Program-made: the position numbers and the translations under genes
Part shown: positions 23,464-30,735 of the stretch, piece by piece
Layout of the letters: every line of letters starts with the position of its first letter
Numbering within the stretch: position 1 is the first letter of the stretch
Assembly: GCF_013377755.1 (NCBI RefSeq)
Contig: NZ_JABXWR010000001.1
Span: 1,871,104-1,935,103, forward strand
Source of the DNA: Methanofollis tationis
Lineage (GTDB): Archaea; Halobacteriota; Methanomicrobia; Methanomicrobiales; Methanofollaceae
Reading direction: 5' to 3'
DNA length: 64,000 nucleotides
Notes under the pieces: model-generated
What the model saw: the letters and a program-made list of their open reading frames with translations, nothing else
What the model was told of the DNA's origin: nothing
The model's database searches: none

Positions 23464-23625
23464 ATGGAGAAATTCAAGTGCATGATCTGCGGTCATGTGT
23501 ATGACCCGGCAAAAGGAGAGCCGAAACAGGGTCTCAAAGCAGGTATCGATTTTGCCGACCTCCCGGCTGACTGGGTCTGCCCGGTCTGCGGGGCGGCAAA
23601 GGAGAAGTTTAAAGGGGTGGTGTGA
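23464..23625 (+). CDS. rubredoxin, second copy
   Basis: 53-residue rubredoxin (MEKFKCMICGHVYDPAKGE then [12 protein letters not shown]) with both iron-binding CxxCG pairs. It ends one base before the ATG of the FprA gene, so the two are almost certainly co-transcribed and the rubredoxin is a likely redox partner. It differs from the upstream copy by a more basic C-terminus (KFKGVV) and KQGLKAG in the loop, so the pair may be specialised. Confidence 0.95.
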   Translation: MEKFKCMICGHVYDPAKGEPKQGLKAGIDFADLPADWVCPVCGAAKEKFKGVV

Positions 23626-23626
23626 A

Positions 23627-24829
23627 ATGGCTGTCCGTACCATCTCCCCCGACGTCTATTCGATCGGGGCGATTGACTGGAACCTCCGCCTCTTCGATGC
23701 CCTGATCGGTACCCCGGAGGGGACGAGTTACAACGCTTTTGTGGTGAAGGGAACCGGGAAAACGGCGCTGATCGATACCGTGGACCCGGCGTTCGAAGAA
23801 TCTCTCCTGAAGAATCTGATGAGGATAGGGATCTCCTCGCTCGACTACATCGTCATCAACCATGCCGAGCAGGACCATGCGGGCTCTCTCCCCCTGCTCC
23901 TGGATATGTTCCCGGGGGCGACGGTGGTCGCCGATGAAAAATGCCGGGACCTCCTCGGCCGTCTTCTCGACGTGCCTGAAGACCGCGTCACCGTTGTGAA
24001 GGACGGCGACACGATCGATCTCGGAGGAAAGACGCTTGAGTTCATCGTCGCCCCATGGGTCCACTGGCCTGAGACGATGATGACCTATCTGAAGGAAGAC
24101 GGTATCCTCTTCTCCTGCGATCTCTTTGGATCCCATCTTGCGACGAGCGAACTCTTTGTCAGGGACTTCACAAAGGTCGAGCGCATGGCGAAACGCTATT
24201 TCGCCGAGATCATGATGCCGTTCCGTTCAAGCGTTCTGGCGGCGATGCAGAAGGTGGCGGAGCGGGATGTCAGGATCATCGCCCCGAGCCACGGCCCCCT
24301 GTACGACGACCCCTCGCTTATTCTTGACGTCTATGCGGAATGGACCTCGGATACGGTGAAAAACCTGGTCCTCCTCCCCTACGTCTCGATGCACGGGAGC
24401 ACGGCGAAGATGGTCTCGTACCTCACCGACGCCCTGATCGAGCGGGGGATCGAGGTGCAGCCCTACGACCTTTCAAAGTCCGACCTCGGGGATATCGCCA
24501 TGACCACGCTCGATGCGGCGACGATCGTCATCGCCACGCCGACCGTGCTCTTCGGCCCACACCCGGTGGCGCTCAACGCCGCCTACATCCTCTCCGCCCT
24601 CCGGCCGAAGACGAAGTTCATCTCTGTCATCGGATCCTTTGGCTGGGGCGGCAAGACCGTCCAGACCCTCGTTGATACGCTCTCACACCTCAGTGCCGAG
24701 GTGATCGATCCGGTCTACATCAGGGGCTACCCGACGGGTGAGGACCTTGCAGCGCTCAACGTTCTTGCCGACACAATTCTTAAGAAGCATGAGGGACTAC
24801 TGACCCGATCACAGGAGGGATCTGGATGA
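23627..24829 (+). CDS. fprA: A-type flavoprotein, F420H2 oxidase (FprA)
   Basis: Flavodiiron protein (400 aa) that reduces O2 to water with F420H2 in methanogens. The N-terminal metallo-beta-lactamase domain carries the diiron ligands in [10 protein letters not shown], the histidine in [10 protein letters not shown], the aspartate in FSCDLFGSH and the histidine in PSHGPLY. The C-terminal flavodoxin domain starts [16 protein letters not shown], which binds FMN. An NO reductase role is also known for the superfamily. It is flanked by a rubredoxin and by superoxide reductase with an ATGA overlap, a complete small oxygen-defence operon. Confidence 0.95.
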
Positions 24830-25206
24830 CCGAACTGCTTGAAGTCTACAAATGTGAGAAATGCGGGAATGTCGTGAAGATTGCGCATGCCGGAGACGGT
24901 GAGCTCGTCTGTTGCGGCGCTCCGATGGTCAGGATGGAGGAGAAGACCGCAGACGTCGGAAAGGAGAAGCACGTGCCCGTGCTGGAGAAGGTCGAGGGCG
25001 GCGTTAAGGTGAAGGTCGGCGATGTGCCGCATCCGATGGAGGAGAAGCACTACATCGAGTGGATCGAAGTGAGGAAGGGGCGCAAACTCTATGTGCATAA
25101 ACTCAACCCCGGCGACGCACCCGAGGCCGTCTTCCCGATCGATGACGTCAATGCCAAAGCCCGGATCTACTGCAATATCCATGGGCTCTGGACAAACCGA
25201 AAATAA
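24826..25206 (+). CDS. dfx: desulfoferrodoxin (superoxide reductase, 2Fe type)
   Basis: Reduces superoxide to peroxide without making O2. The N-terminal desulforedoxin-like centre (YKCEKCGN and VCCGAPM) binds one iron; the C-terminal catalytic domain supplies the His4Cys site: [18 protein letters not shown], and the YCNIHGLW end. Length 126 aa is standard. ATG overlaps the fprA stop, so its production is coupled to the F420H2 oxidase. Confidence 0.96.
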
Positions 25207-25208
25207 CC

Positions 25209-25215
25209 TTTTTTT
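25209..25215 (+). terminator. T-tract after the oxygen-defence genes
   Basis: Seven T residues begin 3 bases past the superoxide reductase stop, the expected position for an archaeal terminator ending the rubredoxin-fprA-dfx transcript. Confidence 0.5.
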
Positions 25216-25270
25216 CTGCCCGTCCCTCTCCGGTAACCTTTAACTCCTCCGGCACCGCACCCCCAGACTG

Positions 25271-26251
25271 ATGGACACACCTGTCTTCAGGGACCTGATC
25301 TCCCGGTCCGATGCGGTCTTTGTGATCGGTGTCGCAGGAGATAGTGGATCGGGCAAAACAACCTTTACCCGAGCAATACGGGAGATCGTCGGCGCCGACC
25401 TCGTCGCCACCATCACCCTCGACGACTATCACCGCTACGATCGAAAAGAGCGGAAAGACCTGAGGATCACCCCGCTCGTCCCCGAGGCGAATAACCTCGA
25501 CCTGCTTGCCGATCATATACGCGCCCTGAAAGGCGGCAATGCGGTTATGAAGCCGGTGTACAACCATTCGGACGGGACGTTCGACCCCCCGGTCCTGTTC
25601 AGGCCGGCGCGGGTACTCATCCTCGAGGGGCTGCACACGCTCTTTACCCCAGAACTCCGCTCCCTCCTGGACTTCTCACTCTTTGTGGACCCCGACCCTG
25701 CTGTCAAGACCCTCTGGAAGATACGGCGGGACATGCAACGGCGCGGCTACAGCCGTGCCGAGGTGATGGCGGAGATGGAGGAGAGAAAACCCGATTATGA
25801 GCGGTATATCGCCCCGCAGCGTGCGTATGCCGATGTGGTGATCCAGATCGCGTGCTCGGGCTACGGCGAGGAGGCGAGCCAGGAGCAAAACGTCTACCGG
25901 GTCACCATCCTCCAGAAAAAACTTCTGCAACAGATGGTGGAGATCGGCCTCTCCCTCGATCTCGGCGAGATCTTCAGGCTCTGCGAACGCCCATTCCTGC
26001 TGAAGTTCGGGTTATCGTCCCTTGACGGGAGGGGACTGAGTGCTCTCGTTCTTGACGGAGAACTGGCCGCTTCGGCGATCCGGCGACTTGCCCGCACCAT
26101 CGGCCGTGAGACGAGATCCGAGGCGGTGCACCTCTTCGCCGACCGGCAGTATGTGACCGCGGGGGAGATCGCCGAGTTGATCCTCGCCTGGCGGATCCTC
26201 AACCGCTGGCATGTGCTGGAGGCGGCGAGGTCGGCGCACGCAAAAGGATAA
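25271..26251 (+). CDS. prk: phosphoribulokinase, archaeal type
   Basis: P-loop kinase (326 aa) of the PRK/uridine kinase family: GVAGDSGSGKTTF (Walker A), TLDDYHRYDRKERKDL, EANNLDLLADHI, and the Walker B-like VLILEGLHTLF; basic residues RRDMQRRGYS follow. In Methanospirillum hungatei a homologous protein phosphorylates ribulose 5-phosphate and feeds an archaeal Rubisco in the reductive hexulose-phosphate pathway. No Rubisco or hexulose-phosphate synthase gene is in the window. A nucleoside kinase role is the alternative but the C-terminal domain is the PRK type. Confidence 0.88.
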   Translation: MDTPVFRDLISRSDAVFVIGVAGDSGSGKTTFTRAIREIVGADLVATITLDDYHRYDRKERKDLRITPLVPEANNLDLLADHIRALKGGNAVMKPVYNHSDGTFDPPVLFRPARVLILEGLHTLFTPELRSLLDFSLFVDPDPAVKTLWKIRRDMQRRGYSRAEVMAEMEERKPDYERYIAPQRAYADVVIQIACSGYGEEASQEQNVYRVTILQKKLLQQMVEIGLSLDLGEIFRLCERPFLLKFGLSSLDGRGLSALVLDGELAASAIRRLARTIGRETRSEAVHLFADRQYVTAGEIAELILAWRILNRWHVLEAARSAHAKG

Positions 26252-26278
26252 GAACTCAGCAGCCTTACCTTTTTTCAA

Positions 26279-27739
26279 ATGGACCGGCTTGAGTATTTCT
26301 CGATTATCGCTCCTGATATCGGGCAGATATTTCGGTTCATGGCGGTGGTCACTTCTCTCCCCCTCGCCGTCACCGTCATCTACGGCGAGTGGGAGATGTT
26401 TGTGCCGATGGCGCTCGTACCCCTGATCTTTCTGCTCGTCGGCAGTCTTCTCGTGCGGGTGCCGCATCCGGCCCGTGAGGCCCGCCTTTCCATCGCCCTG
26501 ACGGCGGTGGCGCTCATCTGGTTCTCGTCCGCCCTCATCGGTTCGGTGCCGTTCATCGTCGGCCTTCAGATGCCGGTGACCGACGCCGTCTTCGAGGCGA
26601 TGTCGGGATGGACCGATACCGGCCTCACCCTCCTGACCGACATTGAGCATACGCCAAAGACCCTGCTCTTCTGGCGCTCGTTCATGCAGTGGCTCGGCGG
26701 CATCGGTATCGTCGCCTTCACCGTCGCCCTCGCCAGCCGCTCCGGCCTGATCCAGCGCGGTCTCTACCGCTCGGAAGGGCGGTCGGAAGCCTTCATGCCG
26801 AGCGTCGTCGGCACCGGCATGGCGATGTGGCGGATCTATATCATCATCACCCTCGCCTCAGTCGGGCTTGTCCTCCTCTCCGGGGTGCCGCTCTGGGACG
26901 CCGTGAACCTCGCCCTCACGGCGATCGCCACCGGCGGTTTCTCTGTCCACTCCGCGGGGATCCCGTATTATCAGAACCCCCTTCTCGAACTCCTCCTCGT
27001 CCCGGTGATGCTCGCAGGCGCCATGCCCTTCAAACTCTATTACCTGATGTACTCTCACCGGAAGGTCAGCTTCTTCGGGGACCGCCAGGCCGTCGCTCTT
27101 CTTGCTTTCACCCTCATCGGATTTCTCGTCCTCACCGCCGACTTCGTCTTCCTGATGGGACGCGATCTCTTCACCGCCCTGCGCGAGGGGATCTTCATGG
27201 CGACGGCAGGAATCACGAGCACCGGCTTCCAGAACTCCTCCCTGCACGTCTGGCCGGCGGTGACCACGCTTTTTCTTGTCATGTTCATGTTCATCGGGGG
27301 ATCGTCGGGTTCGACGGCCGGCGGCCTGAAGATCTCGAAGGTGATCCTGGGGCTGGAGGGGCTTGCCTGGTGGTTCAGGCGGATCTTCGTATCAGGAAAG
27401 GCGATTGTCCCCTTCAGGCATGAGGGGAGAACCGTGCAGAAGAACATCGCCGAGATCGAGGTCTCAAAGAATATGCTCGTCATCATCCTCTATTTTGTCA
27501 GCGTCTTCTTCTGCACCATCGCCATCCTCCACTTCGATGCCCAGACGACCGTCGACTCCTCGAAGGTGATCTTCGAGGTCGTCTCGGCGTTCTGCAACAA
27601 CGGCATTTCAACCGGTTTTGTCAATCCTGACATGAGCCTCGGCTCGAAATGGGCGTTTATCTTTCTGATGTGGTTCGGGAGGCTGGAGATCGTCCCGGTC
27701 CTCGTCCTGTTTATGGGCCTGATCAAGGGTTTTGACTGA
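26279..27739 (+). CDS. trkH: TrkH/KtrB family potassium uptake protein
   Basis: Large membrane protein (486 aa, 8-10 helices) that forms the ion-conducting subunit of Trk/Ktr potassium systems. Filter-loop sequences of the four P-loop repeats can be seen: AMSGWTDTGLTL, ALTAIATGGFSVH, MATAGITSTGFQ and VSAFCNNGISTGF, with FIGGSSGSTAGGLKISK nearby. The NAD-binding regulatory subunit TrkA is not encoded next to it. It is followed after 57 bases by the NifH-like gene, which has its own promoter-like region. Confidence 0.95.
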   Translation: MDRLEYFSIIAPDIGQIFRFMAVVTSLPLAVTVIYGEWEMFVPMALVPLIFLLVGSLLVRVPHPAREARLSIALTAVALIWFSSALIGSVPFIVGLQMPVTDAVFEAMSGWTDTGLTLLTDIEHTPKTLLFWRSFMQWLGGIGIVAFTVALASRSGLIQRGLYRSEGRSEAFMPSVVGTGMAMWRIYIIITLASVGLVLLSGVPLWDAVNLALTAIATGGFSVHSAGIPYYQNPLLELLLVPVMLAGAMPFKLYYLMYSHRKVSFFGDRQAVALLAFTLIGFLVLTADFVFLMGRDLFTALREGIFMATAGITSTGFQNSSLHVWPAVTTLFLVMFMFIGGSSGSTAGGLKISKVILGLEGLAWWFRRIFVSGKAIVPFRHEGRTVQKNIAEIEVSKNMLVIILYFVSVFFCTIAILHFDAQTTVDSSKVIFEVVSAFCNNGISTGFVNPDMSLGSKWAFIFLMWFGRLEIVPVLVLFMGLIKGFD

Positions 27740-27796: not shown

Positions 27797-28627
27797 ATGA
27801 GAGATGACATGAAACAGATCGCCCTCTACGGGAAGGGCGGGATTGGCAAGTCCACCACCTCCGCGAACCTCTCCGCCGCTCTGGGTGAGACCGGACTCGA
27901 CATCCTGCAGATCGGCTGCGACCCCAAGCACGATTCCACGAGGATGCTGATGCACGGTGCCTGGATACCAACCGTTCTCGACCTGGTCAGGGAGCGGGGC
28001 GATGCCGCGATCGTCACGGACGACGTCGTCTTTACGGGCTACGCCGGTGTCCGCTGCGTCGAAGCCGGCGGCCCTGAACCGGGTATCGGCTGTGCGGGCC
28101 GGGGGATCATCGCCACCTTCCAGCTCCTCGAACGTCTCGGTGCGTTAAACGGCGATGTGATCGTGTACGATGTCCTCGGCGACGTCGTCTGCGGGGGGTT
28201 TGCGATGCCGATGCGCGAGGGGTATGCAAAAGAGGTCTACCTGATCACCTCGGGCGAGTTGATGTCCCTGTATGCAGCAAACAACATCGCAAAGGCGATC
28301 GCCAGGCTCGCAAAGCGGTCGAGGCAGACCTGTGCCCTCGCCGGCGTGATCTGCAACTCAAAGAACATGGAAGGGGAGGAAGACCTCGTCAGGGAGTTTG
28401 CCTCACGCATCAACTCCGCGATGGTGGCCTACATCCCGCGGTCCCGCACGGTGACCCTTGCCGAGCTGAACCGGCAGACGGTGATGGAATATGCCCCTGA
28501 ATCCGAGCAGGCAGGCGTGTACCGTCGCCTTGCCGAAGATATCATGAAGAATACGCGGACATCGATACCGACACCCCTTGAAATTGATGAACTCGAAGAA
28601 CTCGCCCGCAGGTTCGCTCAGGTATGA
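27797..28627 (+). CDS. NifH-like ATPase (nitrogenase iron-protein homologue)
   Basis: A 276-residue P-loop Fe protein. Walker A is [16 protein letters not shown]; switch I region [12 protein letters not shown] is intact; the two cysteines that hold the bridging [4Fe-4S] cluster of the homodimer are present in [13 protein letters not shown] and [14 protein letters not shown]. It therefore should be a reductase giving electrons to a NifDK-like partner, encoded by the two following overlapping genes. Start ATG 27797 or ATG 27809 ([11 protein letters not shown]) are both possible. It resembles CfbC of F430 synthesis too, but CfbC works with one NifD-like protein, not two. Confidence 0.93.
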
Positions 28628-29630
28628 GGGGTGCACCCTCACCGGCGCACTCTCTGTTACGACGCAGGTACGGGACGCCGTCACGGTAGTCCACGGCCCG
28701 ACCGGGTGCACGCACCACAATTTCTCTCTTCTTCATGCGATCGCCGCGGAGCAGGACGATTGTGCCCTCCCCCCGCTGGTCTCGACCAACCTTGCTGAGA
28801 GCGAGATCATCTTCGGGGGCGAGGAGGCGCTCGCCAGGACGCTTCAGCGCGTCGCCGACGACGGGCCGGCGGCGATCTTCGTGCTCTCCACCTGCATCAC
28901 CGAGACGATCGGGGACGATATCTGTTCTGTCTGCGCCCGTGACTTCGGGCTGCCGGTGATCCCGGTCCCGACGGCCGGTTTTCTCGGCGGCGCCTTCTCT
29001 GACGGCCTGAACGCGGCGCTGAATACTCTTGCCGCCCTTGCCGGGAGCGAGGGTGTGGAGGAGCAGACGGTTACCGTCATCGGGGAGAAGAATCTTGAGT
29101 TCGAGGTCGAGGAGAATTTTGCTGAGGTTGAAAGGCTGCTCGGGCTGCTCGGTCTCCGGGTCGGCGTCAGATTTGTGCGGAAGATGCGGTTCGCCGACTT
29201 TGAGCGTCTCGGCTCGGGGAGCCTCACTGTTCTCAGGGAACCTGCCCTCAGGCCGGTCGGCGAGGCGCTGAAGCGGCGCTTCGGGACGCCATATATCGAT
29301 TCATTTCCTATCGGGCTTGAGGGGGGCATATCGTTTCTGGAGGAGGCCGCCGCGATCATGGGGCTCGATGCCGGCCCGTCGGTTGAGGCTGAGAGGAGGC
29401 ATCAGGCCGATATGCTCTCGTCCTTTGCCGACATGCGCGGGACGGCGGTCTCCCCCGACCCCCTGACCCTGGGGTCGCTGGAGTACGCCCCGGTCAGGCG
29501 CGTGATGGCGGCGCTTGACCTGAAGGCCGATAGCGGCGGTGCCAGTCTTTCCCTGCCGTACAGCCCGCCCGTGGGAACGGCCGGGATCAGGCGTCTGCTC
29601 CACCGCTGGAGGAGGAGGGCACATGCCTGA
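28587..29630 (+). CDS. NifD-like component of an uncharacterised nitrogenase-like enzyme
   Basis: A 347-residue oxidoreductase/nitrogenase component 1 protein. Cys16 (RYEGCTLTG), Cys41 ([10 protein letters not shown]) and Cys103 ([12 protein letters not shown]) have spacings of 25 and 62, very close to the P-cluster cysteines of NifD (62, 88, 154). It is shorter than NifD (about 480-550 aa), and I find no FeMo-cofactor cysteine or histidine context. The ATG lies within the last 41 bases of the NifH-like gene; the stop overlaps the NifK-like start by 8 bases. The enzyme likely reduces a small or tetrapyrrole-like substrate; which one cannot be read from sequence. Confidence 0.88.
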
Positions 29631-30735
29631 ACGCCCCTGCGCCAACCCGGTCTGGCCGTGCGCCATGTGCGGAGCGGTCTCCTGCCTTTCAGGTTTTTCC
29701 GGGATCGACGTGGTCATCCACGGCTCGTCGGGCTGCTACTTTTATCCGGCATCGCTCATCCAGAGGCCGGTTCACGCAACCATGATCCTGGAAGAGGAAG
29801 TGATATTCGGATCAGAGGAGCGGCTTTGTCAGGTGGTCGACGAGATCAGGGGGCGGGGGAAGCGTGTGGCCGTCGTCCTGACCTGCGTCCCGTCGGTGAC
29901 CGGCGAGGACATCACCGCGATGCTCGACGATGAGGGCGTGATCGTCATCGACAGCCCGGGGTTTGCCGGCGGGATGGAGGAGGGTTACCGGCGGGCGATG
30001 GCGGCGCTTGGCCCCGCGGTGGGGGAAGGAGTAGATGGGATAACGGTCGACGGCCTCAACCCGATCGACCCGTTCTACCGGGGCAACCTGCTGGAGGCCG
30101 AACGGATGATCAGGATGGCAGGCGGGCGGGTTGCGGCGGCGCTTGCGGCCGGGCCGGTTGAGGGGATCAAGGCGTGCGGCCGGGTCTCGGTCGGCACCAA
30201 CCCCGGCCTCTCCGCTGGCGTCGGTCGCTCTGTCGGCTACCTTCTTGGCCTGGATCCGACGAAGGCGGCGTTCTCGCGCCTCGCCGACCTCTGTGGTCTT
30301 GACGCCGGGCCGGTCCTCCAGGAAGCGGAAGAGGCCGGGGAACAGATCGACCGGGCCTGCGACAAATATCTCTCCCGCTTCGATCCGCCGGCGGTGGCGA
30401 TCTTTGCGGAGGACTCCTATGCGGCGTTTGCCGCCGCCACCCTGAGGCGATATCTCGACGCCGAGATCGCGGTGCTCGCTCCCAGGACCGGGGAAGGGGC
30501 AGTCACCTCTCTGGAGGAGATTGAGGAATTGATCGCGGAGGCCGGACCCGACCTGATCCTGGGCTCGTCGTACGAGCAGGCCGTGGCGCCTGAGATCCCG
30601 TTCGTGGGATTGACGTTTCCGCAGCGGGGCAGGGTGCGCCTCCATGCCCGTCCGATTACGGGCATCGAGGGCTCTCTCGCCTTTATCGAGGACGTGCTCA
30701 CGGCGTGCCGCTCCCGCCGCCCTTCAGGGGAATAA
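29623..30735 (+). CDS. NifK-like component of an uncharacterised nitrogenase-like enzyme
   Basis: A 370-residue second component 1 protein. The N-terminus is cysteine-rich (Cys6, Cys13, Cys16, Cys21), then Cys38 in HGSSGCYFYP and Cys88 in VLTCVPSVTGEDI; Cys13-Cys38-Cys88 match the NifK P-cluster spacing in outline. Later parts show PGFAGGMEEGYRRAM, GTNPG and SSYEQAVA, the last like the substrate-side loops of NifD/NifE relatives. The start is secured by GGAGGAGGG seven bases upstream. With the two preceding genes it makes a complete reductase plus heterodimer set. Confidence 0.88.
   Translation: MPERPCANPVWPCAMCGAVSCLSGFSGIDVVIHGSSGCYFYPASLIQRPVHATMILEEEVIFGSEERLCQVVDEIRGRGKRVAVVLTCVPSVTGEDITAMLDDEGVIVIDSPGFAGGMEEGYRRAMAALGPAVGEGVDGITVDGLNPIDPFYRGNLLEAERMIRMAGGRVAAALAAGPVEGIKACGRVSVGTNPGLSAGVGRSVGYLLGLDPTKAAFSRLADLCGLDAGPVLQEAEEAGEQIDRACDKYLSRFDPPAVAIFAEDSYAAFAAATLRRYLDAEIAVLAPRTGEGAVTSLEEIEELIAEAGPDLILGSSYEQAVAPEIPFVGLTFPQRGRVRLHARPITGIEGSLAFIEDVLTACRSRRPSGE

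Follow-up and report, generated by a model that had tools for sequence, protein, structure and literature searches.

The genome of Methanofollis tationis contains an operon of three overlapping genes, here termed H, D and K, in which an Fe protein is encoded together with two proteins resembling component 1 of nitrogenase. The operon was analysed within a stretch of 64,000 nucleotides (the window). According to the reading that we tentatively favour from sequence comparisons, it belongs to a system in which two partners draw on a single Fe protein: H would feed both CfbD and a D/K heterodimer, and D/K, equipped with an interface cluster only, would reduce a tetrapyrrole. If true, almost all genomes of a major order of methanogens encode an uncharacterised nitrogenase-family enzyme, one Fe protein serves two partners of the component 1 type where the genome offers no other donor, and the donor for F430 synthesis can vanish from its own operon and be supplied by another. 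As D/K combines six interface cysteines with the lack of any cofactor ligand, it would also allow the electron-transfer part of nitrogenase-like enzymes to be tested in its minimal form. No description of the H-D-K operon was found in the literature on Methanomicrobiales, chiefly that outside subscription journals.

Organization of the operon

An earlier, sequence-only reading had recognized three overlapping genes for an Fe protein and two component 1-like proteins at 27797-30735, which is confirmed by the coordinates and by Pfam matches scoring far above chance:

27797..28627, + strand: H, NifH/CfbC-type Fe protein, 276 aa (Pfam Fer4_NifH, 358 bits)
28587..29630, + strand: D, truncated NifD/NifE-like subunit, 347 aa (PF00148, 190.9 bits)
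29623..30735, + strand: K, NifK/NifN-like subunit, 370 aa (PF00148, 126.1 bits)

H and D overlap by 41 bases, D and K by 8; D starts with the ATG at 28587, and a TTG is also present at 28578. All three genes evolve under purifying selection, with dN/dS values of 0.04-0.15 for H, 0.22-0.32 for D and 0.14-0.28 for K.

Upstream of H (window 23495-27739) lie genes for an FprA-like flavoprotein, a desulfoferrodoxin, a phosphoribulokinase-type kinase and TrkH, a block which is syntenic across much of Methanomicrobiales. In several members of the order, a gene for a conserved protein, termed c26 (~140 aa), is located downstream of cfbC/D/K (L061:7628-8068, L165:7071-7490). Both were considered as clues to the role of D/K and rejected: the upstream genes mostly stay where D/K has been lost, and c26 persists without D/K and gave no family match in Pfam and NCBIfam searches.

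A probable role of the Fe protein in F430 synthesis

The cofactor F430 is needed by every methanogen. Its synthesis requires both CfbC and CfbD (PMC7242693). The window genome (2.25 Mb, two contigs, 99.3% complete) was screened family by family with PF00142, PF00148 and NCBIfam models. Apart from H, the PF00142 search revealed no second NifH/CfbC-type gene, the other matches reaching at most 45 bits, which is the score range of MinD/ParA-like ATPases. The PF00148 matches comprise D, K and CfbD, the last of which scores 503 bits (cut-off 268) and is encoded within cfbE-cfbD-cfbB. Since CfbD is present, needs CfbC as its partner and has no other NifH/CfbC-type gene to draw on, H is almost certainly the CfbC of this genome. 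H, with an invariantly conserved P-loop, scores 419.9 bits against the curated CfbC model (NCBIfam NF033200; cut-off 402), a cut-off which is not specific on its own, as some NifH proteins of nif operons with an adjacent NifD gene (L182, L184, L189 and L190) pass or nearly pass it. The model therefore fails to separate CfbC from some NifH, a warning that it lumps several kinds of Fe protein together, as do nifH surveys.

The same arrangement extends across the order. No cfbC lies between cfbD and cfbB in any of 31 Methanomicrobiales cfb clusters compared by homology, which span 25 genera by group codes and show gaps of -18 to +71 bases; in other families of the phylum, all eight measurable clusters have cfbC at this place, with gaps of 776-1501 bases. 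In 38 out of 40 genomes of the order, a single gene exceeds the CfbC cut-off; of the other two, one has a gene that scores marginally below it (401.2), and in the second, an incomplete genome, the gene is broken by a stop; wherever these genomes bear D, the CfbC-model gene adjoins it. Taken together, H very probably serves CfbD in F430 synthesis. Its linkage with D and K in one operon makes it likely that H also acts as donor to D/K.

The sequence-only reading had set the operon apart from CfbCD as a separate heterodimeric reductase and had proposed searching the rest of the genome for a separate cfbCD pair, the lack of which would speak against it. The part concerning D and K stands, as they form a distinct pair, separate from CfbD in model scores and tree. 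A separate cfbD was found and no other cfbC, so that this refuting condition applies by one half and fails by the other. As the sole NifH/CfbC-type gene, H almost certainly doubles as CfbC, and the idea of a system self-contained with respect to F430 synthesis is not supported.

Architecture of D and K

The match of D to Pfam Oxidored_nitro (PF00148) covers only model positions 1-265 of 399, and in the other D proteins listed it stops at about position 250-300. The alignment shows that Rossmann domain III, including the His442 region, is deleted at the C-terminus of D, which ends ~60 residues past the helices following domain II. K covers positions 1-398 and retains all three domains. The residues relevant to cluster binding are the following:

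28632..28634, + strand: D Cys16, aligned with NifD Cys62; invariant in 70/70 homologues
28707..28709, + strand: D Cys41, aligned with NifD Cys88; invariant in 70/70
28893..28895, + strand: D Cys103, aligned with NifD Cys154; invariant in 70/70
29235..29237, + strand: D Arg217, at the position of FeMo-co Cys275; Arg in 70/70
29638..29640, + strand: K Cys6, extra N-terminal cysteine; 77/79
29659..29661, + strand: K Cys13, aligned with NifK Cys70; 78/79, one gap
29734..29736, + strand: K Cys38, aligned with NifK Cys95; 79/79
29884..29886, + strand: K Cys88, aligned with NifK Cys153; 79/79

Thus, D/K keeps all six P-cluster cysteines, three per subunit, as expected of a nitrogenase-type component 1. 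The cysteine assignments made earlier hold for H, where both cluster cysteines (Cys99 and Cys132) are invariant in 21/21 sequences, and for the D residues, which indeed correspond to NifD Cys62/88/154. In K, Cys13, Cys38, Cys88 and Cys6 are conserved; of the remaining N-terminal cysteines, Cys16 is mostly Thr in other homologues and Cys21 is kept in 64/79. D Cys41 is followed by a His-rich stretch (GC-x-HHN-x-SLLH), with His43 conserved in 65/70, His44 in 63/70 and His50 in 63/70 homologues. AlphaFold2 models reached a mean pLDDT of 89.1 for D and 93.9 for K; in Foldseek searches, the D model matched Mar, NifDK and NifEN (TM 0.65-0.74) and the K model NifN, VnfK and NifK (TM about 0.8).

The loss of domain III and of the cofactor ligands would also suit a catalytically idle paralogue which regulates or stores H. 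This is highly improbable, since all six cysteines of the cluster, along with numerous motif residues, are invariant across the order and dN/dS values lie well below 1.

Distribution and loss of D/K

A profile search with D gave matches in 91 of 94 Methanomicrobiales genomes (E 1e-107 or better). No orthologue of D was found in the phylum outside this order, where the best matches (1e-54 or weaker) are NifH-D fusions or NifE-like proteins. In a GTDB-wide pattern scan with K, the best 80 of 146 relatives are all Methanomicrobiales-type records; among the named records in the matches listed, the closest K homologues belong to Methanofollis. One assembly (G182) contains two differing D copies (G182:C28:2359-3396 and G182:C32:6422-7459), reflecting either a true duplication or mixed strains.

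D/K is absent from seven complete or near-complete genomes of two genera (g26, n = 1; g36, n = 6). In the six of these that were inspected, H is kept in the same place, between the FprA-like/phosphoribulokinase/TrkH genes and c26. CfbD is the sole PF00148 match in two D/K-less genomes (G129 and G203), so that CfbC and CfbD suffice without D/K. D/K is dispensable for F430: the lineages lacking it retain CfbC and CfbD.

Phylogeny and possible origin of the Fe protein

The component 1 tree comprises 70 PF00148 sequences and has CfbD on a long branch; Bch proteins (N/B/Y/Z) and characterised MarDK were compared via model scores and fold matches instead. D and K each form a clade of their own (100/100 support), outside CfbD, NifD/E and NifK/N as well as those Mar-like proteins of group IV that were sampled, which supports the earlier view of them as a pair separate from nitrogenase and CfbD. 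D has as its sister the D portion of a NifH-D fusion protein (100/99), and K the K of the same fusion system (95/88). H joins the Fe-protein portion of this fusion (93/84, and 88/70 after adding rows) and falls outside the canonical CfbC clade in the best trees; a single group of H and canonical CfbC was not rejected by AU tests (p 0.36 and 0.10). An unpaired NifE-like protein of ~390 aa (L156:3930-5117; also L157, L158, L159 and L149), which keeps the cofactor-type Cys, constitutes a further clade (100/100) and is encoded near cfbD/cfbB in one genome.

The three parallel sister relations suggest a single ancestral HDK operon, whose H displaced cfbC. The trees are also compatible with a relocation of cfbC, in which H would be the ancestral cfbC moved in front of D/K, and D/K a lineage-specific add-on which need not use H. 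This would agree with the score of H against the CfbC model and with the AU values. We consider it unlikely: the best trees join H to the Fe-protein part of the fusion, mirroring D and K, and the gene overlap is kept order-wide, suggesting joint function. The full displacement scenario is itself doubtful. It would require that the Fe protein of an HDK operon displaced CfbC at the base of Methanomicrobiales and that F430 synthesis has depended on it since, its partner D/K being a cofactor-free tetrapyrrole reductase with an interface cluster only and a D subunit that has shed the cofactor-covering domain.

Proposed mechanism and substrate

In the favoured two-partner model, H would act as an ATP-driven reductase that carries a single [4Fe-4S] cluster, fulfilling the CfbC role in Methanomicrobiales by donating electrons to CfbD for F430 and donating also to the co-encoded D/K heterodimer. 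Electrons would enter an Fe-S cluster (P-cluster-like or [4Fe-4S]) at the D/K interface, held by three cysteines from each subunit, and D/K would contain no FeMo-co or [Fe8S9C] cluster beyond it. The loss of domain III may allow a large substrate to bind beside this cluster, similar to the situation in DPOR and CfbD. Candidate substrates are F430- or sirohydrochlorin-derived or imported metal tetrapyrroles, which would undergo ATP-driven ring reduction. We infer the donation of H to both partners, the cluster type and the substrate.

At the window locus, H is the only tetrapyrrole gene, and the proposal of a substrate consequently leans on this one Fe protein and on the sister family. FecCD permease and ABC ATPase genes are located directly upstream of the NifH-D fusion in 9 of 13 loci, and the stretches fetched around these loci include CbiK in 6/13 and CobN in 5/13. 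Fusion and NifK-like pairs beside FecCD/ABC genes, often with CbiK/CobN, were seen at L206, L208-L211, L213, L214, L216 and L160. CobN-like proteins have been linked to haem-iron use in Bacteroides (PMC6460266). The fusion loci may encode an ATP-driven step of metal-tetrapyrrole uptake. As the CbiK, CobN and importer genes of the sister system and the tie of H to F430 point to the same substrate class, a tetrapyrrole is at present the leading, though uncertain, candidate for the substrate of D/K.

Comparison with known systems

NifDK, VnfDK and AnfDK hold their cofactor through Cys275 and His442; in D the Cys is replaced by Arg and the His442 region is deleted. The sequence-only reading was correct in keeping D/K apart from nitrogenase, the FeMo-co ligands being absent and both clades lying outside NifD/E and NifK/N. 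Nitrogen fixation was rejected, as D lacks the cofactor ligands and the genome has nifB but no NifDKEN. The best score of D/K against BchN/B/Y/Z models is 73.7 bits (cut-off 490), far from DPOR/COR.

NifEN resembles D/K in that D is nearest to NifE by model score and K nearest to NifN by fold. This likeness, the presence of NifB without NifDKEN and the L-clusters carried by McrC and Mmp7 in Methanococcus (PMC12176620) could indicate that D/K is a small NifEN-like scaffold passing an L-cluster from NifB to the MCR activation complex (McrC/Mmp7). However, D/K is ~100 residues shorter, nests with neither NifE nor NifN, and has no NifDK in the genome to serve; the L-cluster ligand, equivalent to NifD Cys275 and also found in NifE, is the Arg seen in all 70 D proteins, and domain III is lost. 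MCR is moreover activated without D/K in methanogens outside the order, and the D/K-less lineages inside it must do likewise, which renders a scaffold quite improbable.

MarHDK, the methylthio-alkane reductase, shares the fold, the HDK gene set and the six P-cluster cysteines (PMC12552129). In keeping with this, and with a D/K heterodimer that has its own Fe protein gene, D/K might reduce a small organosulfur compound or other small molecule. Against this improbable alternative, Mar holds [Fe8S9C] via Cys270 and a His, whereas D has neither the equivalent Cys nor domain III, and the genes seen beside the operon include no radical-SAM partner of the Mar type.

Many NifE/N-like pairs have been described, including Mlab_1039/1040 of Methanocorpusculum labreanum, which lies near an ABC transporter and has two plus one conserved Cys (PMC3464626). 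This pair, likewise from Methanomicrobiales and compared by its description, is probably different from D/K, given that a similar locus in a related genome (L218:5430-11579, G024) stands apart from the H-D-K operon; an assignment to the same family was dropped accordingly. The L218 locus, probably of the M. labreanum kind, comprises a second set of HDK-like genes, accompanied by a FecCD-like permease, an ATPase and possibly a solute-binding protein. Another genome contains 13 PF00148 genes, with several group IV-like pairs inside 20 kb (L162, G157:C1:2062100-2082000).

The NifH-NifD fusion and its NifK-like partner, found in Methanosarcina-type relatives and some Methanomicrobiales, are the sister of D and K and, more weakly, of H; fused nifH/nifE-like genes have been mentioned with data not shown (PMC3464626). 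In the fusion system, the Fe protein is fused to a full-length D and K has lost two of its three P-cluster cysteines, whereas H and D of the window are separate overlapping genes and K keeps all three.

CfbC/CfbD, a nitrogenase-family ATP-driven reductase with no cofactor cluster, is tied to the operon by H, which exceeds the CfbC cut-off and almost certainly serves the CfbD of the genome. D and K score 39.7 and 44.0 bits against the CfbD model (cut-off 268) and neither is nested in CfbD, so that model scores and tree exclude either as a second CfbD. CfbD is a homodimer encoded elsewhere, whereas D/K would be a heterodimer with six interface cysteines whose subunits fall into separate clades.
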